A stretch of 64,000 nt of DNA from Lentisphaeria bacterium. Lineage in GTDB: Bacteria; Verrucomicrobiota; Lentisphaeria; Victivallales; Victivallaceae. This document shows, piece by piece, positions 36,375-47,143 of this stretch. The position numbers and the translations under genes are program-made. The stretch is taken from positions 1 to 64,000 of the forward strand of contig JAFTRX010000071.1 in NCBI GenBank assembly GCA_017462015.1, read 5' to 3'. Positions within the stretch are counted from its first letter, which is position 1. The number at the start of each line of letters is the position of its first letter. A model generated the notes under the pieces. The model saw only the letters and a list, made by a program, of their open reading frames with translations, made no database searches and was not told the DNA's origin.

Positions 36375-38762
36375 TTATTCGTGCTTGAAGATCAAATCTC
36401 CGAAGCTGTCTGCATTGTGCAAGTCGCCGCCATCCCAGACGCTGTGAACGTTTTTCTGTTCGCCGGCGCGTTTCGGGCGGCACCGGTAGAACATAGCACC
36501 AACGCGATTGTTGCGCTCAATGTTGATATTGACCGACTTGAACGGGATGGCAATAACCGCGCGCCATTCACCTTTGGTAAGCTGAGTTCTCACCTCCCAT
36601 TTGGTGTTCCACGTTCCATCGGTGGTTCGTCCGTCGTAGATGCCGTTTCTGCCTTGAGAACGGCATCCGAAGCGCAGATGATAGTACCCGTCTTTGCTGT
36701 TGGCGATAAAGATCTGTCCGTGGTCACCGGACGGAACGCGATCATAGGGGAGGTCGGCTTGTCCGACCGCCTCGCCAGGGAAGGGGCAGCGGTACGCAAC
36801 GTAGAAAGTTTCGCCGTTGTGGATGAGTTTGACATCGGTCGGTTCCGGCGGTACGAGGTTGGCATTTTTCAACATGGTCATCGGCGGCATTTTTGCCGCT
36901 TTTTTCCAGATTCCGGAATCAAAGTCAAATCCGGGGAATTCGCGGATGTCGGCGCGGGGAACGATCTGTTCTTTGACCACGCGGGCATTGCCTAAAGTGA
37001 TCCAGCGTTCAAATGTGGCGCTCAATCTGGCGAGCTGTTTTTTTGCAACCGGATCTTTGACCGCGAGGGCGGCTTTTGCCAGCGCGGCGCGGCACTTGCC
37101 GGTCAGATTTTTGTAGATGATGTAACGGCCGGTGGTACGGCGGAAATCATCGTTGAACGAACTTGGAGAGGGATCAAGATACCAGCTGTCGCGCAAGATC
37201 TGATAAAATTCCTGCACGCCGGGCGCGGCTTCTTTGTAGGTACGTTTGACATATTCGTTGCGAAGTTTATCCGGATCTTGTTCAGGGTCCCACAGCAGTT
37301 GGTTGATAACCCAGAATTCAGCACCGGTGATGTCGAAAAATTCAAGTTCCGGAAGGGCACGGGGCGGACGGGCGAATGCCGGACGGTCTCCCCAGGAGGC
37401 TTCGCAGTAGAACATCTTGATGCCGAGTTTGTTGATCCAGCGCAAATCGGTTGCGATAACATTCGCCTGAGCGCGGGGGAATCCCGCCTGAGAGAAGTAA
37501 TATTCCCGCCACATGACACTGGGGCTCATTTTTGCATACTTGATTGTTCTGGCGTGCCATTTGGTGTTGGAGGCATCGGTGATGGGGCGCTTGTCATTGC
37601 GGACGTAGGGACAGAAACTCACGCAGATGGTCGGGAAAATTTTGACTTCCGGCGGAACGCTGGTGAAGTAGTAGCCGAAGCTCTTGATCTGCATTTTGGG
37701 ATTGACCGCATAGACCGCTTTGGCAGCATCGTTCAAAAAGATGAAGAACTGCGTGGAACGGAATGCTTCATGAGTTTTGTCAATGGTTCTGCCGTCGGGC
37801 AGTTTGATCGGAGCTTCGCAGTTTTTGCACTGGCAATTACTGGAAACGTCATCGATCATAATATTGATACGGGTGTAGATGGGATCAAGAGTTTTCAGTT
37901 GTGCAAGAACATTTTTGATAAACTCTTTTTTCATTTCGGGATTGGTCCAGCAGAGGTGGACTGGACCTTCGGTTTTCCGTTCACCGTTGATCAGCATGTA
38001 ATATTCCGGATTGGTCTTGGCATACTTCTTTTTGGGCAGCCAGAGGGTGCTGATGTTGTGACCGCCTCCGAATTCCATGGCAAAGGCGTGATCCATGCGG
38101 CGGCCCATCGCGGCCTTGTACATTGAGGTGGTGAAATTGTTGCTCAACCGGGAGGCGAAAAGTTCAAATTCTTCACTCAAAAAGGCGATGTTCCGGTTGG
38201 GAGCCCAGCCGCGCATGGTGAATTTGGGGATATCGATGTACTCTTTGACATCCAATTTCAAATCAGGATCAAAAGTGAAGTTTGCCGCTTCGTTGCGGGG
38301 ACGGAACCAGATGAAGTCGGTGTGTTTGTGGATGAAACGGTGAACGCCGTTGATGACACCGCGGGGCTGGTTGGCGACGATCAGAATTTTGTTGCCGCCG
38401 CGGATGAAAACGGCATAACCGTCGGTATCGCCGATTTTTTTGAGAGCAGCTTTGATCTTTTTGTCCATGTATTTTTTTACATAGACGCTGTCTGGAGTGC
38501 CGGGGATGAAGTAAACCATATCTTTACAGGTTATTCTTTTCGGAAGCGTGACCGGGCTCTGGTAGATCGAAATCCGGGCATTGGAGAGAAGTTTGAAATA
38601 GTTCTGCAACTCTCTGGCCGCGTGCTGTATCGGACGCGGGGCATTCAGATCGACCACGATACCGGCGAGTCCTTCACTTTCTCTTGATATCTGGAAGGTT
38701 TTTGCTGATGCCGCTGGAAGGAGGACGGCAGTCAGGAGGAGGAGAGCCAAAAAACGTTTCAT
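36375..38762 (-). CDS. Secreted DUF4838 protein
   Basis: 795 residues with a signal peptide (about 1-20, ending ASA). An N-terminal beta-alpha domain resembles the alpha-glucuronidase N-terminal fold (PIQHAARELQNYFKLLS), followed by the DUF4838 TIM-barrel region (about 250-480; WTNPEMKKEFIKNVLAQL, MIDDVSSNCQCKNCEAP, TDLRWINKLGIKMFY) and a C-terminal beta-sandwich (about 650-795) like CBM9/DOMON sugar-binding modules. The family is abundant in Lentisphaerae and related to GH67/GH20-like enzymes. It is last in the long leftward operon and starts at the stop of the DUF4349 gene (TAATG). Confidence 0.88.
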   Translation of the reverse strand: MKRFLALLLLTAVLLPAASAKTFQISRESEGLAGIVVDLNAPRPIQHAARELQNYFKLLSNARISIYQSPVTLPKRITCKDMVYFIPGTPDSVYVKKYMDKKIKAALKKIGDTDGYAVFIRGGNKILIVANQPRGVINGVHRFIHKHTDFIWFRPRNEAANFTFDPDLKLDVKEYIDIPKFTMRGWAPNRNIAFLSEEFELFASRLSNNFTTSMYKAAMGRRMDHAFAMEFGGGHNISTLWLPKKKYAKTNPEYYMLINGERKTEGPVHLCWTNPEMKKEFIKNVLAQLKTLDPIYTRINIMIDDVSSNCQCKNCEAPIKLPDGRTIDKTHEAFRSTQFFIFLNDAAKAVYAVNPKMQIKSFGYYFTSVPPEVKIFPTICVSFCPYVRNDKRPITDASNTKWHARTIKYAKMSPSVMWREYYFSQAGFPRAQANVIATDLRWINKLGIKMFYCEASWGDRPAFARPPRALPELEFFDITGAEFWVINQLLWDPEQDPDKLRNEYVKRTYKEAAPGVQEFYQILRDSWYLDPSPSSFNDDFRRTTGRYIIYKNLTGKCRAALAKAALAVKDPVAKKQLARLSATFERWITLGNARVVKEQIVPRADIREFPGFDFDSGIWKKAAKMPPMTMLKNANLVPPEPTDVKLIHNGETFYVAYRCPFPGEAVGQADLPYDRVPSGDHGQIFIANSKDGYYHLRFGCRSQGRNGIYDGRTTDGTWNTKWEVRTQLTKGEWRAVIAIPFKSVNINIERNNRVGAMFYRCRPKRAGEQKNVHSVWDGGDLHNADSFGDLIFKHE

Positions 38763-39934
38763 TAAAATTCAAAACTCCTGTAAAATTTGTTCAAATCAAT
38801 TTCTTTCATAGCATCGGCAGGACCGTACATCTCCGTTACGGCGACTTTTTCATCTTTGCACAGCCATCCATCCTGATAAAGCGCAACCATGACAGCAAGG
38901 CGGTAAGCGCCGGATACGGCGGTGACGGAAAGGAACTCGGTTCCGTTGGCAGTCTTGTCTTTCTTGAAGACGACTCCGGTGTAGCCGGCATATTTGAGCT
39001 GTCTTTTTATCAAGTTCTGATAGAAAAGCAGATCGGCTCCGGAAAGATTGTTGAAAGGCGCGACTTCGACAACGATGTTGTCAGAGTTTGCCGCCTGAAG
39101 CGAATGTTTGGTCGAGTGGGTCACTGCAAAGCCGGAAGGCAGGGCAATGTTACGAAGCGGAGTATCATCATTGAAGCCGGTCTCCGTAAACTGCTGTTTC
39201 CGGATGTCAATCCCGAGCTTGCGCACCCATGCCACCGGAATGATGCTGCGGGGAATTTCGTTCGGAGTGACTATGGCATTGAAACTCAAATTGAAATCGA
39301 CCATCTCCACCTGGTTGGTGAGAACATTCATCCGCGCCTGATAGCGTTCCAGATCGGTGGTTACCCGGGAAAGTTCCCGTTCAATGCGGATGATCTCATC
39401 GACTTTCGTCGCGCGGGAAAGCAGTTCACTCAACCGTTTCTGCAAGCGCCGGAGGTTATCCAGACGCACTTGCGTATCGGTGTAGTGATCGGTGATGTCA
39501 TTGGCGGTGATGGTTTTGGAAGTGATGGAACCGATACTTTCAAACTCCTTCAACGCAGCGAGAGCTTTGGCGACCGGGATTTTTACATTGGCGGTCGAAT
39601 TGTCGCTGTAAACGACGTAACCGGTGTGTTTTTCTGCTATGGAAGAGGCTTTTCTGACTCCCTTGACCGTGTCGGGCACGTTGATGACCAGGCGGGTGCT
39701 GTAAGTCATTTTCCGTCCGGCAGGTGCTTTGAATGTGTTGTTGTCAGCGGAGTTTTCTCTCCGCAGTCCAGCAGAAACGCGAGAAACGCTGTTCTTCGCC
39801 TTGAACGATTTCGGTCTCGAAACATCAGCAGTTTCTGCAGCCGGAGAAACATCATAGGAGGAATCGAGTGATCCCGTTGAGGTACATCCGGCAAAAATCA
39901 GCAGAACAGGAAGCAAAAAAGCACTCTTTTTCAT
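38762..39934 (-). CDS. DUF4349 lipoprotein
   Basis: 390 residues. The lipobox IFAGC gives a lipidated C17. After a low-complexity linker, the DUF4349 domain is at about 75-235, with RLVINVPDTVKGVRKA, NVKIPVAKALAALKEFESIG, the ITDHYTDTQVRLDNLRRLQKRL coiled coil and VEMVDFNLSFNA. DUF4349 proteins are membrane-anchored, of unknown role. The last about 130 residues form an extra domain. Starts 13 bases after mrp and abuts the DUF4838 gene. Confidence 0.87.
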   Translation of the reverse strand: MKKSAFLLPVLLIFAGCTSTGSLDSSYDVSPAAETADVSRPKSFKAKNSVSRVSAGLRRENSADNNTFKAPAGRKMTYSTRLVINVPDTVKGVRKASSIAEKHTGYVVYSDNSTANVKIPVAKALAALKEFESIGSITSKTITANDITDHYTDTQVRLDNLRRLQKRLSELLSRATKVDEIIRIERELSRVTTDLERYQARMNVLTNQVEMVDFNLSFNAIVTPNEIPRSIIPVAWVRKLGIDIRKQQFTETGFNDDTPLRNIALPSGFAVTHSTKHSLQAANSDNIVVEVAPFNNLSGADLLFYQNLIKRQLKYAGYTGVVFKKDKTANGTEFLSVTAVSGAYRLAVMVALYQDGWLCKDEKVAVTEMYGPADAMKEIDLNKFYRSFEF

Positions 39935-40816: not shown

Positions 40817-41737
40817 TTAAACGATAAGTGCATTTTTAAGTTCGGATACGCTCTTGAAGCCGTTGTTGTCGAGGTATTCATTGATAAAATGGATCACCTT
40901 CAAGGGCGCAAAGGGATCGACAAAGTTCGCTGTACCAACTGCCACGGCATCGGCACCGGCGAGCAGGAACTCAACCGCGTCCGCGCCGTTGGAAATTCCA
41001 CCCATGCCGATCACGGGGATTTTTACCGCGCGGGAAACTTCATAAACCATGCGCACTGCGACCGGCTTGACCGCAGGACCGGAGAAACCGGCAAACTTGT
41101 TGGCGATTTTCGGTTTTCTGGTGTTGATGTCGATTGCCATTGCGGAAAGGGTATTGATGAGGGAGACGGCATCACTTCCGGCATCTTCCACGGCGCGGGC
41201 AAAGTCAGCGATGTTGCCGACATTGGGGCTGAGTTTGGTGATGATGGGAAGTTTGGTTGCGTTGCGCACAGCGGAAACGACTTCGTGAGCAAGTTTCAAG
41301 TCGGTGCCGAAAGCCGCGCCGCCAGCCTTGACGTTGGGGCAGGAGATGTTGACTTCCAGAGCGGTGATGCCGTCGGATTCAGCATCAAGTTTTGCGGCAA
41401 CTTCGGCATACTCTTCAATGGTAACGCCCCACATGTTGACGATGACGGTCGCGCCGGTCTTTTTGAGTCCGGGGAGGTAGTGTTCATCGTGGAGAAATTT
41501 ATCCACGCCGGGGCCCTGCAGACCGATGGCATTGAGCATGCCTCCTGTGACTTCGGCGATACGCGGGGTGGGGTTGCCGTGCGAGGGGATACTGCGGATA
41601 CCTTTGACTACCACCGCACCGAGGCGGGAAAGGTCGTAAAATTCAGCATATTCCATACCGTAACCAAAGGTTCCGGAAGCGGTCATAACCGGGTTTTTTA
41701 GGGTGAATTTCCCAAAATCTACAGATAAATCAGCCAT
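40817..41737 (-). CDS. pyrD: Dihydroorotate dehydrogenase B, catalytic subunit PyrD
   Basis: 306 residues, class 1B size. It oxidises dihydroorotate to orotate in pyrimidine synthesis with FMN, passing electrons to PyrK and NAD. Seen: GTFGYGMEYAEF, the active-site loop with catalytic cysteine in EVNISCPNVK, PIITKLSPN and GMGGISNGADAVEFLLAGA. It is 12 bases downstream of pyrK, as is usual for the NAD-dependent B-type enzyme. Confidence 0.95.
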   Translation of the reverse strand: MADLSVDFGKFTLKNPVMTASGTFGYGMEYAEFYDLSRLGAVVVKGIRSIPSHGNPTPRIAEVTGGMLNAIGLQGPGVDKFLHDEHYLPGLKKTGATVIVNMWGVTIEEYAEVAAKLDAESDGITALEVNISCPNVKAGGAAFGTDLKLAHEVVSAVRNATKLPIITKLSPNVGNIADFARAVEDAGSDAVSLINTLSAMAIDINTRKPKIANKFAGFSGPAVKPVAVRMVYEVSRAVKIPVIGMGGISNGADAVEFLLAGADAVAVGTANFVDPFAPLKVIHFINEYLDNNGFKSVSELKNALIV

Positions 41738-41749
41738 TTTTACAACTCC

Positions 41750-42526
41750 TTATTCAGCGTAAATATCGGAAAGTTTGAAGACCGGGCCATCGACACAGGA
41801 GCGCTTGTAAACCCAGCCGTCGGCAGTTTCCGGGGCGGTGATTTTGACCACACAGCCGAAGCAGGCGCCGACACCGCAGCACATAAAGTGGTCGATACTC
41901 AATTCGCCATCAAGATTGCGTTCTTTGAGAATTTTTGCCAGAGCCATCAGCATCGGGTGCGGGCCGCAGCCGTAGAAGAAGAACTTCCTGCCCGGTTTTT
42001 CAGCGAGCAGCTGGTCGATAAGTTCGGTGACACGGCCTTTGTGTCCCATTGAACCATCATCAGTGGCGACTTTGACTTCAAAACCGCGTTCTTCATAGTC
42101 GCGGGTCAAAATAATATCGGCGGCACTGCGCGCACCCAAGAGCAGAACTCCCGGCTGTTTGGAGCGCTGAGTGAGCATAAAGGTCGCCGCCGCACCGTAA
42201 CCGCCGCAGACGGCAACGGGGATGACATCATCTTCCGGCGTGGAGAAGCCGACACCGACGGGACCGATGAGGTCGCAGGAGTCGCCGGGAAGTTTTTCTT
42301 TGAGCCGTTCCGTACCGGTTCCGACCACTTTATAAACTACGGTTATCATGCCGTTTTCAGCGTTGTGGATGCTGAACGGCCGGCGGAGGATGTTGTCGTT
42401 GCGCTCGTCGATACGGACGTGGACGAACTGACCGGGGCCGGACTTTGCCGCCATTTCTCTGGCATCAAAGCGTATGCGGTAGTAGTCATTCTGCAACTGT
42501 TCGTTGCTGACGATAAAAGCTTTCAT
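41750..42526 (-). CDS. pyrK: Dihydroorotate dehydrogenase electron-transfer subunit PyrK
   Basis: 258 residues. FAD domain with RPFSIHNAE and TVVYKVVGTGTERL; NAD-binding domain with VCGGYGAAATFMLT; and a C-terminal 2Fe-2S cluster with CCGVGACFGCVVK plus a later cysteine (RSCVDGPVF). It couples PyrD oxidation to NAD. Followed by pyrD after 12 bases and preceded by the MBL hydrolase gene after 15. Confidence 0.94.
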   Translation of the reverse strand: MKAFIVSNEQLQNDYYRIRFDAREMAAKSGPGQFVHVRIDERNDNILRRPFSIHNAENGMITVVYKVVGTGTERLKEKLPGDSCDLIGPVGVGFSTPEDDVIPVAVCGGYGAAATFMLTQRSKQPGVLLLGARSAADIILTRDYEERGFEVKVATDDGSMGHKGRVTELIDQLLAEKPGRKFFFYGCGPHPMLMALAKILKERNLDGELSIDHFMCCGVGACFGCVVKITAPETADGWVYKRSCVDGPVFKLSDIYAE

Positions 42527-42541
42527 GTATGTTATCCCTTT

Positions 42542-43156
42542 TTAATTTAAGTATGGATTATGTTTGCGTTCAAAGCCGACGGTGGTACTGCCGCCGTGAC
42601 CGGAAATTATTTCGACCTCATCAGGGAGAGTCAGAATTTCGGTTTTGATCGAATTTATCAGCGTTTCGTAATCGCCGCCGGGGAGGTCGGTGCGCCCGAT
42701 GGAACCGCAGAAAATGGTGTCTCCGGCGATAAGGATTTTTCTTTTGCCGTCATCAAGGAGAAATCCGCTTCCCCCCATGGTGTGTCCGGGAAGATTCAAA
42801 ATTTTTCCGCAGGGCAGGGGCGAAAAGTCGGCGGCTGGCGGCAGATCTTTTGCCGGAGGAAAGTAGGGGAAAAAGCAGTTTTCAGGACTATTATACATTG
42901 CCGCATCGGCGGGGGCAACTTCAACGTGTGCCACATTGAGAGCACGTGCCACTTCGCCACAAGCAGAGATGTGGTCAACATGAGCGTGTGTGAGCAATAT
43001 ACGCGCCTTTTCAAAGGGGAAACTCTTACTGGCGGCGATTATCTCATCGGCATCAGCGCCGGGGTCGATGACGAGAAGCAGTTTCTCTGCTTCAAAAAAT
43101 ACGAGTGAACAGTTGGTGGCAATGGAGCCGACCGGAAACGTTTTTACAGTAAACAT
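42542..43156 (-). CDS. MBL-fold hydrolase (YcbL/glyoxalase II-like)
   Basis: 204 residues of the compact metallo-beta-lactamase type. The metal ligands are all visible: THAHVDH, the LPGHTMGG histidine, GDTIFCGSIGRTDLPGG aspartate and ISGHGGSTTVGFERKHNPYL. YcbL-type enzymes are often type II glyoxalases but the substrate is not fixed by sequence. Second gene of the operon, 2 bases after the DUF3857 protein and ahead of pyrK. Confidence 0.88.
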   Translation of the reverse strand: MFTVKTFPVGSIATNCSLVFFEAEKLLLVIDPGADADEIIAASKSFPFEKARILLTHAHVDHISACGEVARALNVAHVEVAPADAAMYNSPENCFFPYFPPAKDLPPAADFSPLPCGKILNLPGHTMGGSGFLLDDGKRKILIAGDTIFCGSIGRTDLPGGDYETLINSIKTEILTLPDEVEIISGHGGSTTVGFERKHNPYLN

Positions 43157-43158
43157 TA

Positions 43159-46100
43159 TTATTTCCTTTCTTCGAGGATAACTTGACGCAATGACGGATC
43201 ATTCAGCAGTTTATTCAACTTGAACAAGTTCTGGAATTCTTGCGGTTGTAAAGTTTCAAACGGCAGGGACAACATGTATGCGATTGTGATTTTTTGACCG
43301 TAACCGGTTATCCATTTGACAAATTCGCTGCCCGGAGGCAGTTCGGCGGAGGTGAAACTCCGTCGGTTTGGTGAGCATGCCGCAGGGGATATATATTTCA
43401 AATTTTTCGGCAAAGTAAGTGAATATTGGACGGAATAGCTGTCATTGATATTGCGCTGATAAGGCAGGGTGCGTTTCTCTCCTGACAACCGGAGCATGGA
43501 GGCAAAATTCTTTGCCAGCGGCAGTTCAAAGGTGTGATATTTGCCGCTTTTTATCAGAAATCCGGGGATGGTGAACTGATATTTTATCGTCGCATATTTT
43601 GCATCAAATGAGAAATCTTTCAAAGTTGCCGACTGACTTATTGCCGCGACTTTTGATTGGAAAAATTGTTTCAATTCTTCGGGTGTGGATGTGGATAATT
43701 TGCGGTTCAACGCCGGGAAATATATACCGCAATGGCGTTCCGTTATCGCTATCGCGGCACTGGAATCATCCTTGACTGCAATGTTACACTCTATGGTCCG
43801 GTCATTGCTGTTTTCGTAAAGTGACAAACTCTCCAACCATTTTCGATTTGTTATATCACAACATATTTTGTTATATCCATACAAATTGCCTGGCTGGTCG
43901 TAACGGTCAGAGGCGTTGAGGTAGCCGCCGAGATCAATTTTTAAAATGATACTTGAAAAACTTGATTTGTCAAAAAATGTCAGTTCCGGATTCAAACGGA
44001 ACGGCATAGTGGAAACTGCAATAAAACTGTATTTGATTTTAAGTGCTTTACACAACGCCGCATAGAGGATGGCGCGGTCGGCGGAGTTGCCGACACCTGA
44101 TTTCAAAGTCTCTTCAGGAGTGGAGAAAATCGACCAGGGAGCTTCATTTAAAGCAGGCCCCGCTTCAACGATATTTTCAGTGACAAACTTGTGGAGCGCG
44201 TCAACGTCATTTCGGGAATTTTGTTTGATTTTTTCGGCAAGTTCCCTGATTTTCGGAGTGACGATGATTTTTTTACGCAGAGTTGCGTCAAGTTTTTTGG
44301 CAAAATCTCCGGCTTTTCCATAAAATACTTTAAAGGTCGGAACGACCAGATCCATTGGCGGCGTACTCGCTTCTGCCGCAAGAGCAGGGCAGTTTTCTAC
44401 GGTCGCAATCAATGGATCATCCGAAGGGCTGACTTGGATTTCAGCCGGGCGGGTATAGCTCAATACCATTCGGCGGGCAGGCGTTATTGTCATTTTGCGG
44501 AGCAGTGCCGGTTCGGTGGTGCGGGAGTGCATTTCCGCGTAAAAGTACGGTTTATCTTTAACTTTGCGCGTGATGGTATAAGTAACGGTGCTTCCCGGTT
44601 CAACGCCGGGGAAGGCGGCAGTGAGGATCTTTCCTGCCGGGTAACGTTTTGCCGCCGCCGCCCACGGTGCGTCAAGATGATTGATCTCTTTGCTTGAAAG
44701 AGTGTGTTTTTTGCCGTCCGGAGTGATGAATTCACCGGAAATCTCCACATCCTCCATCAATGGGTGGTAGGGGATGTTGACCGTGGAGTGTTCAACTGCT
44801 CCGCCGTAGGTGAAAATTTTCCGCTTGATGGTGCGGACATCATCCCAACTGTTGGGGGTGTGGAACTTTATGGTACGGATGTCGGAGATGATAAGTGAAT
44901 CTGCCCCCGGATAATCGGCGGCACTTAAACTCTTTTTTGCCGGGGGCAATGCGGTTTCAATCAGCGGCAGAGAGTGGGAAGCGCTTTCAAACTTTGCCAG
45001 AGCCGCTTTGGCTTTGAGATAATCTGCCGGAGTGAATTCTGCCGTGTCGATGGCAAAATAGTTTTTCCCGGAAAGAATATTGCCGTTTTTCGTTATTTCC
45101 CGGCTCAAGCGCAGTACATGGGGAATGGATACGTCCACCTTTTCCGGAATGGATTTGATGGAAATTCCAGGGGCAAGTTTCAAGGTGAATTTTTCCGTAA
45201 CGGCGCGGGGCAACGCTTCAAGCGGGAAGCGGCGTTTTTCCAGTTTGAGTGCGTTGTACAAGTTGCGGATGGTACCGAAACGCGAAGCAAATTCCGGCAG
45301 CGCAAGCGGCGCAAGTTTGCTTTCAGCGATGAAGTCCGGTGCTGTATATTCCAGAACCACCTGCAATGGTTCTGCCATGTTGCGGATGTTGGCAGGGGTG
45401 ACGGTGCATTTTTTAAGTTCTGCTCCTGGGATAATGTCGCGCAAAGCTCCGGCAAAATAACGGCGCACTTCTTCCGGCTTCCACTCCGAAAAGGTGGCGC
45501 GGTACATCTGGTCGTGGATGCCTTTGAAATCCATTTCCACTTTTCCGGAGAGGGTGCTGCCGGAGATTTCCGCAACGTTGTCAATGTCAAGCAAATTGTT
45601 TTCTGCCGGGATGACCGGACTGCGCTTCAGTGTGGTCGGCTTCTTTGTCGCCACAAGGTAACTGCAGTTTCCCAGATACGCCGGAAGCAAGTCGGTGGTG
45701 GTTTCAAAGGTCGGGTCCATTAAAATATCTTTGCCGTCTTTGCCTTTCACTCCGACGATGGCATGATTGAAGTAGATATTGGGGACATCATCGTCCTTGG
45801 GGTAACCGGACATGAAAAGTACCGGATATGCTTCAAAGCCGGCAAGTTTTAATAGCGATACCAGCAATGCCGCCTTGTCTCTACAAACGCCGTGACCGCG
45901 TTCAAAGGTGCGGGAAACATCGTGCGGTTCGTAACCGGGGGCAGTCTCTTCATCGGTGATGCCGGTGTAGCGGATGCGCTGGGAGACGTATTGAAAGAGC
46001 GAGGTGATTTTTTCCATATCGCTCTTTTTTCCGGCGATGGTTTTTTGAACAAAATTTTTCATTTCCGGAGTGACCGCCGCCAGACGCGGGGCGCACAAGT

Positions 46101-46890
46101 CGGCATACCACGAAGCGATCTCGCTCCAGTTTTGAGCCGTACTGGTCAAAACGCGCATGGCGCAGCGGTATAAGGGCGGCATCCCCGGTTCCGGGATGAG
46201 CTGCGGAACATTTCTGGCTTGCCAGCGGTAAATCATCCGGTCGCCGCTTTGCGTTTTGGTAAAGGTCAACGCGCCTTTAACTTCATCCTTTACCGCGATG
46301 GAACGCAACGGACGGCTTGCCGGAGCATCTATGGTGTAAGTGTAATTCTCTACAGGACAATCTGATTGCAGTACGGCAAAGCCGCTCCACTGTCCGGGAA
46401 TACGGGATTTGAAGGTCTCCTCTTTTCTGGTGATGTTGAGCGTATCCCCCACTTCCAGATCGGGGATGGTGAATGAGAGCTGTTTGCTGTTGGGATCATA
46501 GATGCGTGCGCTCATCTGGCTGTGGTCGATGGAAACGACTGCCAGTTTTGCCGGGTCAAGGATGATTTTTCTGCCGTCCGGCTTGGTCACACTCAAATGA
46601 GTGACTGAAATTTTTTCATAATTGGTGTGGAAACGGAAGAGCAGGGTCCGCAGTTCGTCGCGCCCTTTGGTGGTCAGCACCCGGTAGGAAAATGTATCTG
46701 TGGAGACGGACGTTCCGTCGGGATTGTAACGGATGAACTCGTCATCCGAGAGCAAAATGGCATTGGCATTGGGGTATTTTTTATCCAAAGAGCAGGAGCG
46801 GACCGCCCGGGATGGTTCAGCCGCATGCGGTGTCCGGCAGCCGGATAGCACCAGCGCGGTCAGAAAAAGTATATAAAAAATCTGTTTCAT
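43159..46890 (-). CDS. Fused tandem DUF3857/transglutaminase-like lipoprotein
   Basis: 1243 residues. The lipobox LSGC puts lipid on C18. Two copies of the DUF3857 plus transglutaminase-core arrangement are fused. The first (about 45-620) has an intact Cys336 (GHGVCRDKA), His376 (FNHAIVGV) and Asp392 (LMDPTF). The second (about 665-1225) matches the layout but has Ser936 (GVGNSADRA), Ser for His (FSSIILKI) and Asn for Asp. So one active and one probably inactive catalytic core. DUF3857 is a periplasmic domain of unknown role. First of a seven-gene operon; only a weak TTCACA/TATATA promoter was seen near 46910-46950. Confidence 0.85.
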   Translation of the reverse strand: MKQIFYILFLTALVLSGCRTPHAAEPSRAVRSCSLDKKYPNANAILLSDDEFIRYNPDGTSVSTDTFSYRVLTTKGRDELRTLLFRFHTNYEKISVTHLSVTKPDGRKIILDPAKLAVVSIDHSQMSARIYDPNSKQLSFTIPDLEVGDTLNITRKEETFKSRIPGQWSGFAVLQSDCPVENYTYTIDAPASRPLRSIAVKDEVKGALTFTKTQSGDRMIYRWQARNVPQLIPEPGMPPLYRCAMRVLTSTAQNWSEIASWYADLCAPRLAAVTPEMKNFVQKTIAGKKSDMEKITSLFQYVSQRIRYTGITDEETAPGYEPHDVSRTFERGHGVCRDKAALLVSLLKLAGFEAYPVLFMSGYPKDDDVPNIYFNHAIVGVKGKDGKDILMDPTFETTTDLLPAYLGNCSYLVATKKPTTLKRSPVIPAENNLLDIDNVAEISGSTLSGKVEMDFKGIHDQMYRATFSEWKPEEVRRYFAGALRDIIPGAELKKCTVTPANIRNMAEPLQVVLEYTAPDFIAESKLAPLALPEFASRFGTIRNLYNALKLEKRRFPLEALPRAVTEKFTLKLAPGISIKSIPEKVDVSIPHVLRLSREITKNGNILSGKNYFAIDTAEFTPADYLKAKAALAKFESASHSLPLIETALPPAKKSLSAADYPGADSLIISDIRTIKFHTPNSWDDVRTIKRKIFTYGGAVEHSTVNIPYHPLMEDVEISGEFITPDGKKHTLSSKEINHLDAPWAAAAKRYPAGKILTAAFPGVEPGSTVTYTITRKVKDKPYFYAEMHSRTTEPALLRKMTITPARRMVLSYTRPAEIQVSPSDDPLIATVENCPALAAEASTPPMDLVVPTFKVFYGKAGDFAKKLDATLRKKIIVTPKIRELAEKIKQNSRNDVDALHKFVTENIVEAGPALNEAPWSIFSTPEETLKSGVGNSADRAILYAALCKALKIKYSFIAVSTMPFRLNPELTFFDKSSFSSIILKIDLGGYLNASDRYDQPGNLYGYNKICCDITNRKWLESLSLYENSNDRTIECNIAVKDDSSAAIAITERHCGIYFPALNRKLSTSTPEELKQFFQSKVAAISQSATLKDFSFDAKYATIKYQFTIPGFLIKSGKYHTFELPLAKNFASMLRLSGEKRTLPYQRNINDSYSVQYSLTLPKNLKYISPAACSPNRRSFTSAELPPGSEFVKWITGYGQKITIAYMLSLPFETLQPQEFQNLFKLNKLLNDPSLRQVILEERK

Positions 46891-47044: not shown

Positions 47045-47143
47045 ATGGGACAGCAACTCAACAAGATCATCAAACGTCGTCGCCGCAAAGCTTACCTGGA
47101 ACGCATTCGTGAGCGTGTCAAAGCTCAGATTGCCGCCAAGTAA
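47045..47143 (+). CDS. Very small, strongly basic protein (32 residues)
   Basis: This gene encodes 32 residues with seven Arg and five Lys against two Glu. Residues 1-14 carry the MGQQLNKIIKRRRR core, and the rest has helical repeats (RIRERVK). It has a strong promoter (46965-46993), an AAAGGA ribosome-binding site at ideal distance, and a terminator hairpin at 47174-47211. All three make it a very probable real gene. It looks like an RNA-binding or ribosome-associated peptide; I seem to recall similar short proteins in Verrucomicrobia/Lentisphaerae but cannot confirm. No known enzyme or toxin family. Confidence 0.68.
   Translation: MGQQLNKIIKRRRRKAYLERIRERVKAQIAAK

Follow-up and report, generated by a model that had tools for sequence, protein, structure and literature searches.

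The locus analysed here raises the question why a single predicted lipoprotein carries two copies of the same module, of which only one has an intact catalytic triad. The protein is encoded in the window, i.e., the whole stretch of 64,000 nucleotides that was analysed, and is composed of a signal peptide with a lipobox followed twice by a DUF3857 domain, a transglutaminase core and a beta-rich C-terminal domain. The features are as follows, with the basis of each in brackets:

43159..46890, reverse strand: gene of the fused double DUF3857/transglutaminase lipoprotein, 1,243 aa (single open frame)
46837..46890, reverse strand: signal peptide with the lipobox LSGC at its end, residues 1-18, Cys18 (sequence, pattern check)
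46204..46722, reverse strand: DUF3857 domain of module 1, residues 57-229 (Pfam, six-frame search)
45715..46056, reverse strand: transglutaminase core 1, residues 279-392, triad intact (Pfam)
45883..45885, reverse strand: Cys336, the predicted nucleophile in core 1, located at a helix N-terminus (136/136 relatives; model)
45763..45765, reverse strand: His376 of core 1 (136/136 relatives)
45715..45717, reverse strand: Asp392 of core 1 (136/136 relatives)
44971..45660, reverse strand: beta-rich C-terminal region of module 1, residues 411-640 (model; profile alignment)
44530..44826, reverse strand: DUF3857 domain of module 2, the part that reaches the Pfam model (six-frame search)
44032..44244, reverse strand: transglutaminase core 2, the part that reaches the Pfam model, predicted catalytically dead (Pfam)
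44083..44085, reverse strand: Ser936 at the nucleophile position, N-terminus of the equivalent helix (138 relatives without Cys; models)
43951..43956, reverse strand: Ser979-Ser980 at the position of His376 (alignments)
43912..43914, reverse strand: Ala993 at the position of Asp392, Asp in 96/138 relatives (alignments)
43162..43833, reverse strand: beta-rich C-terminal region of module 2, residues 1020-1243, evolving faster than the other parts (models; identity blocks)

An earlier reading of the sequence only had described the protein as a lipoprotein with two copies of the module, and both statements were confirmed. A signal peptide with LSGC18 is predicted from the sequence; the strict lipobox pattern matched no more than 15 of 126 relatives, and lipidation is thus not general in the family. 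DUF3857 (PF12969) was detected twice with a total of 139.3 bits (cut-off 24.6), each copy being above the cut-off. Transglut_core (PF01841) exceeds its cut-off in module 1, where the Cys-His-Asp triad is present, and reaches 23.7 bits in module 2 (cut-off 23), which belongs to the family by fold and sequence similarity. Since one half finds the other by BLASTP with E=2e-9 and the profiles of the two module families align over 555 columns with E=4e-49, the repeat is not due to chance. A six-frame search of the genome (2.8 Mb, 131 contigs), whose closest named relatives are MAGs of Lentisphaeria/Victivallales, revealed no further DUF3857 or Transglut_core match, and no NCBIfam family covers either module. 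For DUF3858 (PF12970), no Pfam row was obtained in the protein up to E=10; the C-terminal region of the module 2 model does align to the DUF3858 region of the solved structure 3KD4, described below.

The residues Cys336, His376 and Asp392 of core 1 are exactly those named in the earlier reading, and the 136 distinct relatives that cover core 1 have C-H-D there without exception. For core 2, three replacements had been claimed. Ser936 and the serine at the histidine position were verified, His376 facing Ser980 in the profile alignment and Ser979 in the MAFFT alignment. The claimed Asn was not, as Ala993 faces Asp392 in the profile alignment; Asn992, one residue ahead, was presumably meant. Among about 138 distinct relatives (drawn from 60 closely related genomes, 80 named records and distant members of the phylum, counted as distinct if their core regions are not identical, with some loci being near copies and the counts not independent), core 2 has the Cys in 0/138, the His in 7/138 and the Asp in 96/138. 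The retained Asp at position 993 sits in the motif LND[TS]...YA and is missing in the window protein and its closest relative. Because residue 993 is Asp in most relatives, the third replacement is a local one. Asp938, the equivalent of Asp338 beside the active Cys in core 1, is kept in 135 of 138. The loss is therefore conserved in part, family-wide for the Cys and locally, not as a family trait, for the Asp. As judged from these relatives, the whole family has lost the nucleophile, and this loss has gone on to that of the full triad only locally.

Two findings had been named in advance as arguments against an inactive second core, a relative with an intact one and a different Cys-His-Asp set at this place. 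The former was found in 0 of about 138 relatives, and no set of the latter kind is conserved among them. As candidates for an alternative set, the Cys and His columns of module 2 were inspected and rejected; they reach at most about one third of the relatives, and those lie outside the site. With Ser936, Ser979/980 and Ala993 in place of the triad, module 2 is predicted to be a member of the same fold family and no enzyme by the Cys-His-Asp route.

Structure prediction agrees with this assignment. Module 2 alone was modelled by AlphaFold2 from 47 sequences as a full, confident fold (pLDDT 89.5, pTM 0.86), and the full-length model places Cys336 and Ser936, which are exactly 600 residues from each other, at the start of helices preceded by the same elements. 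As the two begin equivalent helices, nothing in the models points to a displaced site in core 2. The sole close structure to module 2, far above the rest in the Foldseek and VIA-align comparisons, is 3KD4 (TM 0.64/0.76; Z 26.6 over 482 aligned residues); 3isr is also matched (Z 8.2). In a search of the PDB with the whole-family profile only 3KD4 was found, with E=8e-32 and aligned to module 2. At the expected Cys site, 3KD4 reads AYGTPLEIA and contains no Cys. Since it falls on module 2 and lacks the Cys, the structure that defines DUF3857 is that of a dead module. Its description as a 'putative protease' is thus misleading as to activity, because 3KD4 represents the non-catalytic half.

The 3KD4 gene does not stand alone. 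In Parabacteroides distasonis, a spacer of 13 bp separates it from a preceding 652-aa gene whose product combines DUF3857 and Transglut_core with an intact C-H-D triad; each partner of this pair (WP_211744397.1 with WP_008780583.1) has a signal peptide. The dead partner scores 111 bits with the module 2 profile vs. 47 with that of module 1, the active partner 270 bits with the module 1 profile vs. 79 with that of module 2. The record is listed as a plasmid and is perhaps chromosomal, as menaquinone genes are located on it. This was the single Bacteroidota pair found in the plasmid records searched, and on viral contigs no Bacteroidota pair was found.

A search of Planctomycetota with the family profile revealed further adjacent pairs (L244-L249 and L257-L260), each made up of a C-H-D partner and one without the Cys, in varying order. 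The pairs L257-L260 are long and bear TPR repeats, the dead partner of L245 has the His and no Cys, and L228 is a fused pair of a C-H-D and a dead module. By eye, a small domain that follows the signal peptide and precedes DUF3857 (e.g., IFLQNGEEIEGEIASFENGKFKLKDGRSVKVDNVKSVKF) looks similar in both partners of L245, L247 and L248. The stand-alone Planctomycetota DUF3857 proteins L250, L253 and L254 form a separate subfamily with C-H and N in place of D (NPTDP motif).

In G039, a draft genome from the window's own order, the two modules are separate genes on different contigs with unrelated neighbours, and both are kept. Its module 1 has a lipoprotein signal and C-H-D; its module 2 has its own export signal and reads GYGNSADCA, with neither Cys nor His. 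Each pair found, fused or separate, has exactly one core with an intact triad, and an intact and a dead paralogue that are paired are what genetically defines an enzyme-pseudoenzyme pair. In Armatimonadota, the module usually occurs singly and intact, and no second one lies within about 4 kb of it, so that the active module does not always depend on a dead neighbour.

The history of the pair was reconstructed from a tree of 58 modules, from which the active-site columns were excluded. In it, fused module 2 forms a group (93/86) with the P. distasonis dead partner and those of Planctomycetota class I. A tree of four groups separates fused module 1 and active partners from fused module 2 and dead partners with a support of 100/99.9, and with 97/96 after removal of the two longest dead rows. 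Duplication within the lineage, with both fused modules in one clade, was rejected by the AU test for all rows of the four-group set (p=0.011), and was not rejected with all classes (p=0.30) or without the two longest dead rows (p=0.16). Taken together, the trees favour an origin of the pair before the fusion, without proving it. The dead partners of classes II and III are placed elsewhere in the tree, which implies up to three origins of dead partners; a single clade of all dead partners was not rejected either (p=0.22).

These mixed results bear on the view that each phylum duplicated the module and let one copy decay independently, in which case the pairs would be convergent and the fusion would say little about an ancient complex. 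The two non-significant AU tests would fit such a history, as would the accessory domains that the partners of classes II and III have in common, with TPR in both. We nevertheless regard it as rather doubtful, since the dead partners of other phyla are the ones with which fused module 2 groups, with and without the long branches, the four-group test with all rows rejects it and the profile scores of the P. distasonis partners agree with the split into module 1 and module 2. If convergence were true, it would itself argue for the usefulness of a dead partner.

Two further explanations concern module 2 itself. As a passive spacer or arm, it would anchor, space or oligomerise module 1 and neither bind a substrate nor regulate. 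Its faster evolution in nearly all pairs, the many residue types that fill its lost site and the TPR repeats of the class III partners, a scaffold element, are what such a role would predict. We consider it unlikely, as it leaves unexplained why the entire DUF3857-transglutaminase-C-domain module is retained, why a dead chain is exported separately in Bacteroidota, Planctomycetota and G039, and why Asp938 and the LND[TS]...YA motif are nearly invariant. If the chemistry had been swapped, the residue at the Cys position, which is Ser, Asn or Thr in 109/138, would form a new catalytic or ligand site with Asp938 and the LND Asp, and the retention of these aspartates in 135 and 96 of 138 relatives, respectively, would be in its favour. 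This is very improbable: R, A, G, P, Y, K and other residues also occur at the Cys position, a conserved His is lacking, position 993 is Ala in the window protein, and Asp938 may be structural because Asp338 of the intact core is its counterpart.

The rates of evolution were compared between the modules. With a dN/dS of about 0.1 for module 1 and about 0.2-0.3 for module 2, the latter is under purifying selection, more weakly than the former. In almost all pairs compared, module 2 was the less conserved of the two, with the sole exception of the helix block at residues 901-960, at the former active site, where conservation remains high. Furthermore, a mosaic pattern was observed in 43162-44550, which corresponds to residues about 781-1243 of module 2. 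Relative to L004/L057, the nucleotide identity of the window is 75-88% over most of module 1 and 87-98% across this stretch; relative to L005/L058, it is 78-92% and 39-63%, respectively, except for residues 901-960 (86%). It looks as if the module 2 stretch had been swapped for a divergent allele common to L004.

The genomic neighbourhood was examined in 80 related loci. In the window, the gene is followed within a few bases by genes for an MBL-fold hydrolase, pyrK and pyrD (40817-43156, reverse strand), an order kept in about 23-24 of the 80 loci and confined to the part of the tree in which the window lies. No other widely recurring neighbour family was found among the 80 loci. As neighbour families recur only partly, the context gives no functional clue. 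Divergent to the gene, a very basic open frame of 32 aa (MGQQLNKIIKRRRRKAYLERIRERVKAQIAAK) is located at 47045-47143 on the forward strand; it adjoins the gene in 20/80 loci and has no NCBIfam match. Further downstream on the gene's own strand, a DUF4349 lipoprotein (38762-39934) and a DUF4838 protein (36375-38762) are encoded.

Every pair found has one working core, and for this reason the window protein is probably a fused two-subunit enzyme. We consider it reasonably probable that it is the single-chain form of an exported enzyme, in which module 2 is the binding or regulatory half. That a working and a dead module recur as a pair in several phyla, fused or neighbouring, suggests that the halves work together. 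The C-H-D papain-like arrangement is typical of transglutaminases, cysteine proteases and acyltransferases, and module 1 would act as a cysteine hydrolase or acyltransferase of the papain/transglutaminase fold via Cys336-His376-Asp392, presumably outside the cytoplasm on a protein or peptide. Module 2 would descend from the same fold and have lost its active site, with the fold and not catalysis under selection. From the genetic pairing, we infer that the two halves are in physical contact; most likely, module 2 would hold the substrate or set the conformation or activity of module 1. The earlier proposal of a binding or regulatory partner is thus strengthened by the recurring pairing and by the absence of an intact second core, while binding or regulating itself is what we infer. 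Against this explanation stand the intact single modules of Armatimonadota, the single pair seen in Bacteroidota and an origin of the adjacent gene pairs that could be plain tandem duplication. A wider generalisation is tentative and rather less than probable: DUF3857 enzymes might be obligate pairs of a live and a dead half that arose in several independent lines in at least four phylum-level groups, with a fast-diversifying dead half that picks the substrate and a constant half that cuts or links, both fused in Verrucomicrobiota.

An enzyme with a pseudoenzyme partner is a known kind of system, and the DUF3857 case, in a family without assigned function, is new. In the literature searched, no paper on an intact-plus-dead DUF3857 pair was found, DUF3857 was mentioned in one paper and DUF3858 was absent. 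DUF3857 hereby becomes a testable two-component system, and the missing active partner of 3KD4 is supplied by the gene next door. Furthermore, natural fused, adjacent and unlinked versions of one pair are good material on how dead paralogues become partners.

The closest known systems include the DUF3857 and Transglut_core proteins (PF12969, PF01841) of Bacteroidota, Armatimonadota and Proteobacteria. Module 1 is an ordinary C-H-D member of these, which have single modules, whereas a live and a dead module are present in the window protein. 3KD4 (BDI_1141, P. distasonis, DUF3857 and DUF3858) has the three-part layout in common with module 2, as well as a residue other than Cys at the Cys position, and differs in being encoded by a separate gene adjoining its intact partner, not fused, and in its identity of 16%. 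Erythrocyte protein 4.2 is a catalytically dead transglutaminase. Like module 2, it has the same fold minus the catalytic Cys, with a weak match (7uzs, Z 7.9); unlike the window protein, it is eukaryotic and cytoskeletal and has no active copy in the same chain. In trypanosomes, AdoMetDC with its prozyme and the deoxyhypusine synthase pair were found by experiment to be enzymes complexed with a dead paralogue (PMC5201418, PMC3663545). These pairs are of unrelated folds and are separate chains; what they share with the model proposed for the window protein is that the enzyme works as a complex with a catalytically dead paralogue.
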